From Lachnospiraceae bacterium (GTDB taxonomy: Bacteria > Bacillota > Clostridia > Lachnospirales > Lachnospiraceae), in the NCBI GenBank assembly GCA_028693705.1, contig JAQUUX010000001.1:1-64000 (forward strand): DNA of 64,000 bases, read 5' to 3'. Under the pieces are notes generated by a model. It was not told the DNA's origin and did no database searches. It saw nothing but the letters and a program-made list of their open reading frames with translations. Made by a program: the position numbers and the translations under genes. Position 1 is the first letter of the stretch. Each line of letters opens with the position of its first letter. Below are positions 27,798 through 56,465 of this stretch, piece by piece.

Positions 27798-28658
27798 ATG
27801 AAAATAGTAGATTTACATGTTCATTCCAACCGTTCTGACGGGAGTATGACTCCCACAGAACTGGTATATTATGCAAAAGAAAAAGGCTTAAGTTCTTTCG
27901 CTCTCACAGACCATGACTGTGTAGAAGGTATTGATGAAGCCTTTGATGCTGCAAAAAGGCTGAAAGAAGAAACCGGCTATGATCTTGAAGTTATCCCGGG
28001 TATGGAATTCTCTACCGATTATCTGGGAAGTGATGTTCACATCGTGGCTCTGGATATTGATTACCATTCTGACACCTTTGTAAACAATATTTCCCGTTTC
28101 CTGGATTCCAGATCACTCAGGAACGAAAAAATGTGTGAAAAACTAAGAGAACGCGGTATAGACATTTCCATGGAACAACTAACCGATGATTTTCCCGATG
28201 CAGTAATTACCAGAGCTCATTTCGGAAAATACCTGTATCAAAAAGGCTACTGCTTAAGCGTTTCCGATGCGTTCTCCCAATATATCGGAGACCACGCGCC
28301 CTGTTTTGTCAGTCGTGAAAAGGTAACACCCAAGCAGGCAGTAAAACTAACCCGCCTGTGTGGCGGTATCCCTATACTGGCTCATCCTCTCCTCTATGGC
28401 TTCAGTAAGGAAAAGCTGGACACACTGACCGCAGACTTGACAGAGTCCGGCCTGCTTGGATTAGAATGCCTGTACAGTTCCTATACTTTAGCTGATGAAC
28501 ATAATATGCGTAAATTAGCCGCCAAATACGATCTAGCCCCCAGCGGTGGATCCGACTTCCATGGAACCACAAAACCCGGACTGGATATGGCCACCGGGTA
28601 TGGAAAGCTGTTTATTCCTTACGAGATTCTGGAGCATTTGCGGCAAAAACTGCTTTAA
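27798..28658 (+). CDS. PHP-domain phosphoesterase
   Basis: A 286-residue PHP-family metal-dependent phosphoesterase. The metal-site motifs are in order: DLHVHSNRSDG, ALTDHD, PGMEFS, ILAHPLLY and GSDFHG. Relatives include 3',5'-nucleoside bisphosphate phosphatase and RNase AM (YciV). The ATG at 27798 (MKIVDLHVH) is chosen; an ATG 12 bases earlier overlaps the ABC-F stop by 8 bases and neither has a strong ribosome site, so translation is probably coupled to the ABC-F gene. Its TAA is the first base triplet of the palindrome that opens the noncoding element. Confidence 0.88.
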   Translation: MKIVDLHVHSNRSDGSMTPTELVYYAKEKGLSSFALTDHDCVEGIDEAFDAAKRLKEETGYDLEVIPGMEFSTDYLGSDVHIVALDIDYHSDTFVNNISRFLDSRSLRNEKMCEKLRERGIDISMEQLTDDFPDAVITRAHFGKYLYQKGYCLSVSDAFSQYIGDHAPCFVSREKVTPKQAVKLTRLCGGIPILAHPLLYGFSKEKLDTLTADLTESGLLGLECLYSSYTLADEHNMRKLAAKYDLAPSGGSDFHGTTKPGLDMATGYGKLFIPYEILEHLRQKLL

Positions 28659-28659
28659 A

Positions 28660-28969
28660 CTGCAGTTTAGCAACTTGCAAATACTAATTATAACGAGACG
28701 GCAATGGTGTGGGTGTGTATCCTTCCATTGCCGCTCACACGTATAAAAGCCACTAAATCATTCCATTTAGATTGCAGTTGCTTACGCTAACGGAACCAAT
28801 CGCCATCCTGGCTCTGAGGTTCCTTTCCGGGCATCCTTGCCCGGAATAGCTGTGGTAACAGCTGGAATGATTAAGTGGCTTTAATACATGTTCACAGGCA
28901 CTGAAAGGATACATACCCGCACCACTGCCTGTTCGTTACTATTCATATCTCCAAGTTGCTAATCTGCAG
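28660..28969 (+). repeat. Element copy 1, foldback 1 (conserved core)
   Basis: Nested helices, outside to inside: 28660-28677 with 28952-28969 (18 bp, one mismatch); 28700-28722 with 28907-28929 (23 bp, two G-U pairs and one A-C on the plus strand); 28746-28765 with 28863-28882 (20 bp, one mismatch). At the tip are three hairpins: GGAACC/GGTTCC (28792-28823), TTCCGGGCA/TGCCCGGAA with a TCCT loop (28825-28846), and AGCTGT/ACAGCT with a GGTA loop (28848-28863). A local hairpin GGCAATGG/CCATTGCC (28700-28732) competes with the second helix. The tip is nearly identical in copy 2. Confidence 0.85.
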
Positions 28970-29117
28970 TTGACCTGGTCTGTAGCAAGGCTCAGATTAC
29001 GGCAATTAGATGTTTCTACAACCGCCCTAGGTTGATGCCAGGTGTCGCAAAGACACTAGTTACCGCAAGGAAATAATTGCAATAGTCTGGTCTTGGCTAC
29101 AGACCGGGCAACTGCAG
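28964..29117 (+). repeat. Element copy 1, foldback 2
   Basis: Begins AATCTGCAGTT and ends AACTGCAGATT, which are reverse complements. Next to them GGTCTGTAGC (28977-28986) pairs with GCTACAGACC (29096-29105). The right half, read on the minus strand, matches foldback 2 of copy 2 read on the plus strand, so this module is inverted between the copies. Confidence 0.8.
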
Positions 29118-29306
29118 ATTAAATTGGAATAAAGTACAAAGAATGGGACGGCTATATCACTCTGAGAAGCACTTGAACCCCGTCGGCATTTGGCTTGCGT
29201 AATTTGCAAGCCTATGTGCCGCTACGGGGTTCATGTAGCGAAAGCGCGCTTCGATGAGTGATATAGTCGTCCCATTCGGTATACTTAAATCCAATTTAAC
29301 CTGCAG
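29112..29306 (+). repeat. Element copy 1, foldback 3
   Basis: Outer arms of about 51 bases (29112-29162 and 29256-29306) pair with few mismatches. The tip holds three stacked helices: TGAACCCCGT/ACGGGGTTCA (29174-29183, 29224-29233), GGCA/TGCC (29185, 29217) and GGCTTGC/GCAAGCC (29192-29198, 29206-29212) with a 7-base loop. The helix junction has C on one side and GCT on the other. A GCGAAAGC hairpin follows near 29238. Confidence 0.85.
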
Positions 29307-29307
29307 C

Positions 29308-29571
29308 TTATCCTTCTACTATGAGATATCTTCCATCCCCAACTTCAAAAACTTCTGACGCTTCTAAAATACTCTCTTCGTCAGCATCCTCTACATCAAT
29401 GCCTTCTTCCTCAAAGTATTCCAGCACTTCTTTTACGGAATTCACTACAACTGCCATGCAGTCCTCTAAGAATTCTTCTGCTTCTGCTTCATTTTCTGCT
29501 ACCTTCTCTGAAAACAGCTGTCCCTGGTGTTTCAGAAAGCATGCAATTACTGCGTCATCATATTCGCCCAT
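29308..29571 (-). CDS. Small acidic protein of unknown function
   Basis: An 87-residue protein with about one third Glu and Asp, no signal peptide and no membrane segment. Predicted mostly helical: QLFSEKVAENEAEAEEFLEDCM, then VVVNSVKEVLEYFEEEGIDVED, and a short C-terminal beta end, VFEVGDGRYLIVEG. I do not recognise a domain. It lies 4 bases after maf and is probably cotranscribed with maf and ppk. The stop codon touches the noncoding element, so the 3' end of this mRNA probably carries foldback 3 in antisense. Confidence 0.75.
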   Translation of the reverse strand: MGEYDDAVIACFLKHQGQLFSEKVAENEAEAEEFLEDCMAVVVNSVKEVLEYFEEEGIDVEDADEESILEASEVFEVGDGRYLIVEG

Positions 29572-52429: not shown

Positions 52430-52435
52430 GTTAAA

Positions 52436-52749
52436 CTGCAGTTTAGCAACTTAAAAAATAATGTTTATAATGAGACGGCAATGGTGTGGGTGTGTATCCT
52501 TCCATTGCCGCTCACACGTATAAAAGCCACTAAATCATTCCATTTAGATTGCAGCTACTTACGCTAACGGAACCAATCGCCATCCTGGCTCTGAGGTTCC
52601 TTTCCGGGCATCCTTGCCCGGAATAGCTGTGGTAACAGTTGGAATGATTAAGTGGCTTTAATACATGTTCACAGGCAATAGAAGAATACACACCCGCATC
52701 ACTGCCTGTTCGTTACATTCATTATTCTTTTCAAGTTGCCAATCTGCAG
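52436..52749 (+). repeat. Element copy 2, foldback 1
   Basis: Same nested plan as copy 1. The apical region is almost identical. Differences fall mostly in arms and keep pairing on the plus strand; for example AGCTGT/ACAGCT has become AGCTGT/ACAGTT, a G-U pair. The arm inside the outer helix changed on both sides, AACTTAAAAAATAATG with CATTATTCTTTTCAAGTT, and still pairs. Confidence 0.8.
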
Positions 52750-52839
52750 TTAACCCAGTCTGTAGCCAAGGCCAGACTATTGCAACTATTCATTTGCCGT
52801 AACTGGGGTCTATGCATCACCGGGCATCATAAACTGCAG
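52744..52839 (+). repeat. Element copy 2, foldback 2 (inverted relative to copy 1)
   Basis: Bounded by AATCTGCAGTT and AACTGCAGATT. Its sequence from 52756, GTCTGTAGCCAAGGCCAGAC and onward through GTAACTGGGGTC to CCGGGCATC, aligns with the reverse complement of 29034-29106 in copy 1. About 70 bases of copy 1 foldback 2 are missing. Confidence 0.8.
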
Positions 52840-53044
52840 ATTGAAGGAAATACAGATTGCCGTAAAACGAGGTTCAGCCGTGTATCGTATGCGAACAAGC
52901 ACTGTAAACACGTCTGTACTTAGTTCGCGTCTTATGCGAACTTATGTACAGCTACGTGTTTACCGTAGTGAAAACGGGCTTGTGAGCATATGATACACGG
53001 CTGAACCGTCCCTTTACATCAATCCTTATTTCTTTAACCTTCAG
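52834..53044 (+). repeat. Element copy 2, foldback 3
   Basis: Outer arms pair through GGTTCAGCCGTGTATC with GATACACGGCTGAACC. Tip helices: GTAAACACGT/ACGTGTTTAC (52904-52913, 52954-52963), TGTAC/GTACA (52915-52919, 52946-52950), GTTCGC/GCGAAC (52923-52928, 52936-52941) with a 7-base loop. The junction is again C opposite GCT, and GTGAAAAC follows where copy 1 has GCGAAAGC. Confidence 0.85.
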
Positions 53045-53045
53045 T

Positions 53046-53855
53046 TTACTTCTCTTTGGAGAACAGTATCCTATCATTATCCAACTGCGCTCCCACATTT
53101 TCCTTAAACTTCGTCAGCAGATCATCTACTGTCATCTTTGTTCTTTCTTCTCCATAGATATCCGATACGATCCTTCCGGAATCCATCATCAGTGTTCTGT
53201 TTCCCAGTTCCAGTGCCTGGTGCATGTTATGGGTTACCATAAGGCAGGTAATGCCTCGTTCTGCAATGATATCCTTAGTCAGTTTCAGAACTTTTTCAGC
53301 CGTTGCAGGATCCAATGCTGCGGTATGTTCATCCAGTAACAGGATCTTTGGCGTTACCATAGTTGCCATGAGAAGTGTCAGTGCCTGTCTCTGACCTCCG
53401 GATAATAATCCAACCGGCTGTTTTAACCGGTCTTCCAGCCCCATATCCAATAGTGCCAGCTGTTCTCTGAACTTTTCCTTATCCTTCTTGGACAAACGGC
53501 TGAAGAACTGATGACTCTTTGTTGATGCTCTAAGGTATGCCAGGGTAAGATTTTCTTCTATCGTCATATGCGGAGCAGTTCCCAGTAATGGATCCTGGAA
53601 TAAGTGTCCGATCATTTTGCTTCGTTTATATTCCGGTACATAGGTGATATTCTCGTCATCCAGGATAATATCTCCTTCATCTACATAAAAGGAGCCGGTA
53701 ATAGCATTAAACATAGTGGATTTTCCTGCACCATTACTACCGATAATGGTTGCAAAATCCCCATTATCCAAATGAAGATTTACGTGACTCAAAGCAGATT
53801 TTTCATTTACTGTACCCGGATTAAAGGTCTTGGATATATTTTTTAATTCTAACAT
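53046..53855 (-). CDS. ABC transporter ATP-binding protein, probably tryptophan uptake
   Basis: A 269-residue ATPase with Walker A IIGSNGAGKSTMFNAI, a Q-loop, signature LLSGGQRQALTLLMATM and Walker B ILLLDEHTAALDPATAEK. It belongs to the type that pairs with a LivH-like permease and a PF04392 binding protein. It ends the three-gene unit under a Trp T-box, so tryptophan is the likely substrate. The stop codon abuts the noncoding element. Confidence 0.9.
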   Translation of the reverse strand: MLELKNISKTFNPGTVNEKSALSHVNLHLDNGDFATIIGSNGAGKSTMFNAITGSFYVDEGDIILDDENITYVPEYKRSKMIGHLFQDPLLGTAPHMTIEENLTLAYLRASTKSHQFFSRLSKKDKEKFREQLALLDMGLEDRLKQPVGLLSGGQRQALTLLMATMVTPKILLLDEHTAALDPATAEKVLKLTKDIIAERGITCLMVTHNMHQALELGNRTLMMDSGRIVSDIYGEERTKMTVDDLLTKFKENVGAQLDNDRILFSKEK

Positions 53856-56173: not shown

Positions 56174-56465
56174 AAAAAAACCGTCTCAGAACATCTTTCG
56201 ATGCTTGAGACGGTAATAAACATTATTATGTCATTATCGCGGTACCACTCAAATTGATTCCAAAGGAATCCACTCTGTCATGTACTACATACACGCCGGA
56301 TTGATAACGGGTCCGTACCCGCCAGCTCCTACTATCATCTTCAGGCCAGCCTCAAAAGTCCATTCAACATTATTCCACTGTACTGCATTCCACCAGCCGC
56401 AGCTCTCTGAACAGCTTCACCAATGTCTACTACTCTTTCTCATCGGTTTATCTTTTCAATTCATA
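56174..56465 (-). promoter_or_regulatory. T-box riboswitch, specifier UGG (tryptophan)
   Basis: Read on the minus strand. An AGAGA box lies near 56404-56408. The specifier loop reads GAATGGAC, with codon TGG (Trp) at 56360-56362. The T-box sequence GAGTGGTACCGCG is at 56238-56250. The terminator hairpin ACCGTCTCA/TGAGACGGT (56180-56214) is followed by TTTTTTT. All parts are in order. Uncharged tRNA-Trp should open the hairpin and allow the importer to be made. Confidence 0.95.

Follow-up and report, generated by a model that had tools for sequence, protein, structure and literature searches.

TwoAYGGAY RNA at the tip of a MITE-like foldback element in a Lachnospiraceae genome: a putative mobile decoy for CsrA

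The region between positions 28700 and 28929 of a 64,000-nucleotide stretch of DNA from a Lachnospiraceae bacterium (contig JAQUUX010000001.1; hereafter the window, meaning the whole stretch analyzed) is the apical part of foldback 1, with which an intergenic element of three foldbacks begins. With modest confidence, we read it as the tip of a non-coding, MITE-like foldback belonging to a mobile, multicopy set, whose minus strand carries TwoAYGGAY RNAs that are putative decoys for CsrA. The core matches the TwoAYGGAY family, is present in many copies, is flanked by inverted-repeat arms and carries GGA loops; elements with such cores have left footprints in other genera, and the RNA co-occurs with CsrA. 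New here are the placement of the core between long inverted repeats on MITE-like elements, and the finding that the presence of the RNA tracks CsrA across 200 genera.

The element extends from approximately 28656 to 29306, with a PHP-domain gene on one side and a convergent 87-amino-acid ORF on the other (Table 1); a scan of the genome contigs for the PHP gene gave nine loci, the nearest 61% identical. A second element in the window likewise sits between convergent genes, and the neighboring genes of the two copies are unrelated to each other. The foldback 1 copies (28679-28939 and 52456-52716) are 95% identical over 261 nt, and the whole window element folds with a z-score of about -25 on each strand when compared with 20 shuffled sequences. 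Foldbacks of the F3 type (window 29112-29306 and loci L087, L088 and L091) have a common internal motif, approximately GCTACG...GTAGCGAAAGCG.GC, within very different arms. The Rfam scan reported no family in the window F3, and the motif may represent a further module, either of structured RNA or of DNA. The window also holds a T-box leader (56203-56452, minus strand, 117.9 bits).

Table 1. Coordinates of the features discussed, given as positions in the window
Feature	Position	Strand	Remarks
TwoAYGGAY RNA (RF01731), full model	28731..28897	-	99.6 bits; apical core of foldback 1
TwoAYGGAY RNA (RF01731), second window copy, full length	52508..52674	-	99.6 bits
First CsrA-type hairpin	28826..28845	-	Loop AAGGAU (28838-28833), C-G closing; from sequence, fold and loop count
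Second CsrA-type hairpin	28792..28823	-	Loop AGGAU (28809-28805), GCC/GGC closing; from sequence, fold and loop count
Foldback 1 (F1)	28656..28969		Inverted-repeat arms around TwoAYGGAY core; bounded by CTGCAG palindromes
Foldback 2 (F2)	28964..29117		CTGCAG at either end
Foldback 3 (F3)	29112..29306		CTGCAG at either end
Left arm	28700..28732	plus orientation	Contains the local alternative helix GGCAATGG/CCATTGCC
Right arm	28907..28929	plus orientation	Pairs with 28700-28722 over 23 positions
Terminal palindrome TAAACTGCAGTTTA	28656..28669		Provides the TAA stop codon (28656-28658) of the PHP-domain gene
Convergent 87-aa ORF	29308..29571	-	Stop codon (29308-29310) lies directly beside the far end of the element
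Second three-foldback element	52432..53048		Flanked by pyrI (+, ends 52429) and an ABC transporter gene (-, ends 53046)

The window core matches the RF01731 covariance model from model position 1 to 168, at 99.6 bits against a gathering cut-off of 43 bits, and both window cores (L012 and L013) have at least two GGA hairpin loops. Judged by their sequence, these loops fit CsrA sites. The idea that TwoAYGGAY binds CsrA is not new, because excerpts from Gardner et al. (2014; PMC4333381) report that the family matches the CsrA motif twice and propose CsrA-binding sRNAs in Clostridia, and because Rfam clan CL00106 holds both TwoAYGGAY and the CsrB RNA of E. coli (RF00018). The window element contains two promoter-like sites, a number at chance level, both on the plus strand and none on the minus strand, and no terminator-like site; no common promoter was recognized by eye in flanks from five genomes.

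Conservation of the loops was followed by aligning 33 cores, of which 23 represent as many other genera, and searching 144 loci with the resulting model; the 165 matches, less five truncated ones and two duplicates (L024 repeats L006), left 158 cores. At least two GGA hairpin loops, defined as five to seven bases on a stem of three or more pairs, are present on the minus strand in 146 of the 158, against 11 for the complement and approximately 12 for shuffled sequence; the other 12 cores have fewer, four of these having none. The C-G pair that closes hairpin 1 is kept in 94 of 94 cases, so that the cores display the several GGA motifs in C-G-closed loops by which RNAs of the Csr/Rsm type are recognized. 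The stems are paired in 95.1% of cells, compared with 36-46% in slid controls, and double changes occupy 1110 cells against 302 after shuffling; the model to which this alignment was fitted drew in part on the same sequences. G-U pairs are scarce: two alignments, both fitted to a model that accepts G-U as a pair, have 53 among 3211 standard pairs and 77 among 2140 respectively, and the lean between strands is weak (53 G-U against 28 A-C, the latter being G-U on the plus strand, and 77 against 51). This share is lower than expected for an RNA selected for its fold, in our own judgement rather than by reference to a control RNA. The paucity of G-U pairs suggests that the arms are kept complementary partly at the level of DNA, so that covariation alone is no proof of RNA function; homogenization of the palindrome through template switching or conversion may drive much of the apparent covariation. 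A stronger case for function as RNA comes from the GGA loops, which are strand-specific.

Across the family, RF01731 was found in 34 of 200 Lachnospiraceae genera, in a survey of one genome per genus with strict filters and 13 candidates scored per genome. CsrA is encoded in 110 of the 200 genomes (108 above cut-off), and is present in 33 of the 34 that carry the RNA, our own genome among the CsrA-encoding hosts as befits a Csr/Rsm-type RNA, against 77 of the 166 that do not (Fisher p 5e-9, genera treated as independent). FliW was found in 31 of the 34 genomes with the RNA and in 105 of 200 overall (Fisher p 3e-7, again with genera treated as independent); as it co-occurs almost as well, CsrA is not separable from the flagellar csrA-fliW locus, and csrA adjoins fliW in our own genome. 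The single genome with the RNA and without CsrA (G167) is small, at 1.6 Mb and 93% complete. Copy counts across 33 genomes run from 1 to 50, to be read as at least that many where 60 candidates were scored, with 50 and 47 matches in two other genera. FliW gave no match in genome G142, which holds 50 copies of the RNA and whose sole CsrA match is divergent (56 bits, in a 99-amino-acid frame). Many G142 contigs start or stop no more than a few hundred bases from a copy of TwoAYGGAY, which would be expected if near-identical repeats had broken the assembly. A survey of 391 genomes of the wider class gave matches in 36, which belong to several families; 27 of them are above cut-off. A second, divergent CsrA-like protein of 89 amino acids is encoded at locus L070 (G000:C137:2101-4908, 1378-1647 minus), next to an ORF that resembles a tyrosine recombinase by eye; divergent CsrA paralogues occur in other genomes too, one lying approximately 1.2 kb from a TwoAYGGAY copy (G041:C54, L133).

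Our own genome (3.12 Mb in 160 contigs) has 40 RF01731 matches at E<=0.001, 39 of them above cut-off, and approximately 30 of the 40 form one element family that reaches from about -381 to +248 around the start of the core. The ends of these elements are TAAACTGCAGTTTA-like palindromes, and their modules, as read by eye, are bounded by CTGCAG-like hexamers and occur in varying sets: part of another module replaces F3, F2 and the left F1 arm in L018, L029, L033 and L035 are shortened versions, and L013 and L020 carry other F3/F2 modules. Eleven copies have a 15-nt insertion in the first hairpin in common, on differing sequence backgrounds, a pattern which suggests that copies of the element exchange sequence. 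Sixteen of the 26 family copies with both neighbors called lie between convergent genes. Where an ORF was called, 24 of 28 copies have a convergent stop codon at 46-82 nt beyond the core; where a 5' ORF was called, 13 of 28 have, 347-373 nt upstream, the end of a gene that runs on the RNA strand. Some of the neighbor calls are spurious ORFs inside the element. At many sites the stop codon of a convergent neighbor is provided by the TAAACTGCAGTTTA palindrome or directly adjoins it, and no target duplication is visible there. The DNA of the element itself gave just two matches beyond our own genome in 397 genomes of the family, with few candidates scored per genome; each is approximately 50 nt long and both are in G300. 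The genus of the source organism offers a single genome for empty-site comparison.

Evidence for mobility comes mainly from other genera. Inverted-repeat arms flank the core in 132 of 153 cores tested, where a positive had to score more than 1.5 times as high in the alignment as the best of 20 shuffled sequences and five of the 158 cores were excluded because their flanks were too short; at least two of the 132 positives (both in L059) owe their match to an arm of the neighboring core. The arms printed run from approximately 20 to more than 300 bp. In three genera (G121, G175 and G041) part of the elements are approximately 310 bp long with GATTCGGGTGTCAAAAGG-like inverted-repeat ends, and a strict pattern located both end anchors in 24 of their 49 cores. 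Exact 7-bp target duplications border seven of the 24 (four of eight in G121, two of five in G175 and one of 11 in G041), and the flanking heptamers agree at 0.637 of positions, compared with 0.390 for permuted flanks (z 6.9, the best among 60 settings of offset and length). Terminal inverted repeats, the absence of an ORF, multiple copies and, in these other genera, target-site duplication are the marks of a MITE. Because of the long inverted repeats and the 7-bp duplications in two genera, with one case in a third, the core appears to travel on MITE-like elements. The own-genome elements gave no target duplication, the best z being 2.8 among 792 combinations over 16 elements. Siblings with element ends but no core exist, and some seem to carry the core inverted, partly as judged by eye; the TwoAYGGAY RNA therefore looks like cargo of the element rather than part of the transposition machinery. 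No autonomous parent with GGTGTCAAAA ends was seen by eye at 15 TIR loci, up to 420 bp inward, and no transposase was linked to the elements. Mobilization by a Y1 (RAYT) transposase was considered and rejected for our own genome, which is 96% complete and has no PF01797 match; five of 14 control genomes do match.

Gene context also varies. Among 103 single-core places with both neighbors called, which include our own genome and depend on mechanical ORF calls, 29 lie between convergent genes, 25 between genes running along the RNA, 38 between genes running against it and 11 between divergent genes, and all orientations occur around elements in other genera. Cores within 700 bp of one another are arranged head-to-head in 15 of 17 clusters, nine of the 15 coming from G085, and this arrangement could reflect a shared central promoter or an inverted duplication. 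Close cores with facing 5' ends are seen at L048, L161-L166, L168, L169, L178, L057, L063, L129, L005 and L006.

The region was originally singled out as a nearly invariant core between strongly diverged neighbors. Foldback 1 does occur in two window copies and its pairings are real. For this pair the contrast holds, with the RF01731 core 98% identical and F2 plus F3 52% identical, gap columns included, but the pair looks extreme because copy 1 holds a different F2/F3 set. Among 23 complete own-genome copies, left after 17 of 40 rows that were diverged, truncated or without modules had been excluded, mean pairwise identity excluding gap columns is 0.867 for the core, 0.904 for the arms and 0.873 for F2 plus F3 (medians 0.854, 0.907-0.909 and 0.900); when gap columns are included the values are 0.799 for the core, 0.858 and 0.856 for the arms and 0.795 for F2 plus F3. 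Over many copies the core is no more conserved than the other modules, the outcome that the original prediction had itself named as evidence against it.

The two proposed pairings are borne out. Positions 28700-28722 pair with 28907-28929 through 20 Watson-Crick pairs, two G-U pairs and one mismatch on the plus strand (20, one and two on the minus strand), and locally GGCAATGG (28700-28707) is the exact complement of CCATTGCC (28725-28732). Such local helices recur among 29 copies, fully paired in 22 for the right arm and 19 for the left, which fits one part of the suggested bistability; forcing the local helix costs approximately 22 kcal/mol on either strand, so that by these calculations it would be at most a kinetic intermediate, and bistability at equilibrium is disfavored. 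The claim that changes in copy 2 mostly keep plus-strand pairs as G-U failed: of the 14 changed pairs present in the folds of both strands, four are G-U on the plus strand, six are G-U on the minus strand, two are mismatches and two are gaps. In the 29 copies, G-U occupies 73 cells in 26 pairs on the minus (RF01731) strand, 11 of these cells falling at the 15-nt insertion, and 51 cells in 27 pairs on the plus strand; the count covers 98 pairs with a Watson-Crick majority, and of the eight excluded for lacking one, five lean towards minus-strand and three towards plus-strand G-U. An earlier count of 231 against 123, from the fold of one copy's RF01731 strand, was biased by the strand folded and has been superseded. 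Wobble thus gives no preference for the plus strand, and any lean is towards the minus. A functional RNA domain is supported all the same, on the opposite strand and on different grounds, namely the known TwoAYGGAY family on the minus strand and its conserved GGA loops rather than plus-strand wobble.

What is left of a slowly evolving, bistable plus-strand RNA switch is the presence and recurrence of both its local and its long-range pairings; set against the pace of core evolution, the wobble pattern, the cost of switching and a family model that lies on the minus strand, these leave it very improbable. Regulation in cis, by a standalone 3'-UTR or an antisense element acting on neighboring genes, is improbable to a lesser degree. 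Rfam assigns RF01731 the type 'Cis-reg', and the upstream gene ends on the RNA strand described above would suit a 3'-UTR, but neighbor orientations vary, the window copies have unrelated neighbors, and the table of Weinberg et al. (2010; PMC2864571), as excerpted, lists TwoAYGGAY as probably an RNA and probably not cis-regulatory.

The weightiest rival, which we nevertheless think rather unlikely, is a DNA-level, BIME-like foldback: the hairpins would function as DNA, or would separate convergent genes as barriers working in both directions, and a transposition or nucleoid protein rather than CsrA would recognize the loops in DNA that is single-stranded or cruciform. It would account for the few G-U pairs, the near-symmetrical folding of both strands, the regular distance to a convergent stop codon in the own-genome family and the prevalence of head-to-head clusters. 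It fares less well with conserved loops that are strand-specific for GGA and fit a CsrA site, with an RNA whose presence tracks CsrA, with elements that outside the own-genome family take every gene orientation, and with the failure to find a Y1/REP transposase in our own genome. The mobile CsrA decoy remains the preferred reading.

Several known systems resemble parts of this element. REP and BIME sequences are mosaic repeats of palindromic modules between genes. The present elements are likewise intergenic mosaics of palindromic modules, in this genome often between convergent genes, but their foldbacks measure approximately 150-310 bp and are not accompanied by a RAYT-type transposase in the genome. 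CsrB carries many CsrA sites. TwoAYGGAY resembles the CsrB/RsmB-type sRNAs (RF00018) in its clan and in displaying GGA in hairpin loops, whereas the window RNA has approximately two sites, tens of copies per genome and a foldback as its carrier, in hosts that are Clostridia and mostly also encode FliW. With prokaryotic MITEs the elements have in common a short length, no ORF, terminal inverted repeats, high copy number and target duplications (in two genera, with one case in a third); QMITE1/2 of Coxiella are prokaryotic MITEs that give rise to sRNAs, according to part of a review (PMC10969869). The present elements differ in carrying a cross-genus RNA with putative CsrA sites, and their parent transposon was not found. 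Bacillaceae-1 RNA (RF01690) also has two CsrA-motif matches, which the same excerpts from Gardner et al. (PMC4333381) place on its reverse complement, but it is a separate family in Bacillaceae. TwoAYGGAY itself (RF01731; Weinberg et al. 2010) is matched here over the full covariance model, with GGA-loop hairpins on a closed stem; the portions of its literature available to us do not describe it as the tip of dispersed inverted-repeat elements. Nor did the partial texts retrieved on TwoAYGGAY, and on CsrA with miniature inverted-repeat elements, contain a report of a MITE-like tip or of CsrA tracking. In Eubacterium and Roseburia, csrA sits at the flgM-flgN/fliC locus according to a 2013 study of their motility genes (PMC3720852), and the passages of that study returned by a term search name no sRNA or repeat.

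How such a decoy might work can be outlined. The element would be transcribed from its own or a neighboring promoter, and the RNA would fold into hairpins that present A(N)GGA(N) loops, and a single CsrA dimer would bridge two of the sites. Tens of copies per genome may then titrate CsrA in trans, alongside FliW, its protein antagonist. The transposon would have its terminal repeats in the long arms, which might also protect the ends of the RNA, the mosaic F2 and F3 modules would be separate passengers, and the element would persist because the decoy is tolerated or useful. More tentatively, mobile foldbacks with CsrA-decoy cargo may be a clade-wide feature of Clostridia, a possible though less likely extension in which copy number sets the cell's capacity to buffer CsrA, and transposition thereby rewires this global post-transcriptional regulator beside FliW. 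Whether there is any species in which CsrA is under the joint control of FliW and sRNAs 'remains to be determined', in the words of a passage in a 2020 review (PMC7652899), and since FliW is encoded in nearly all Lachnospiraceae genomes with the RNA, the question is directly testable in this family. If the decoy reading is true, an RNA family without a demonstrated function would gain both a partner and a mechanism of dispersal, and a regulatory decoy for a global regulator would have been spread by transposable elements.
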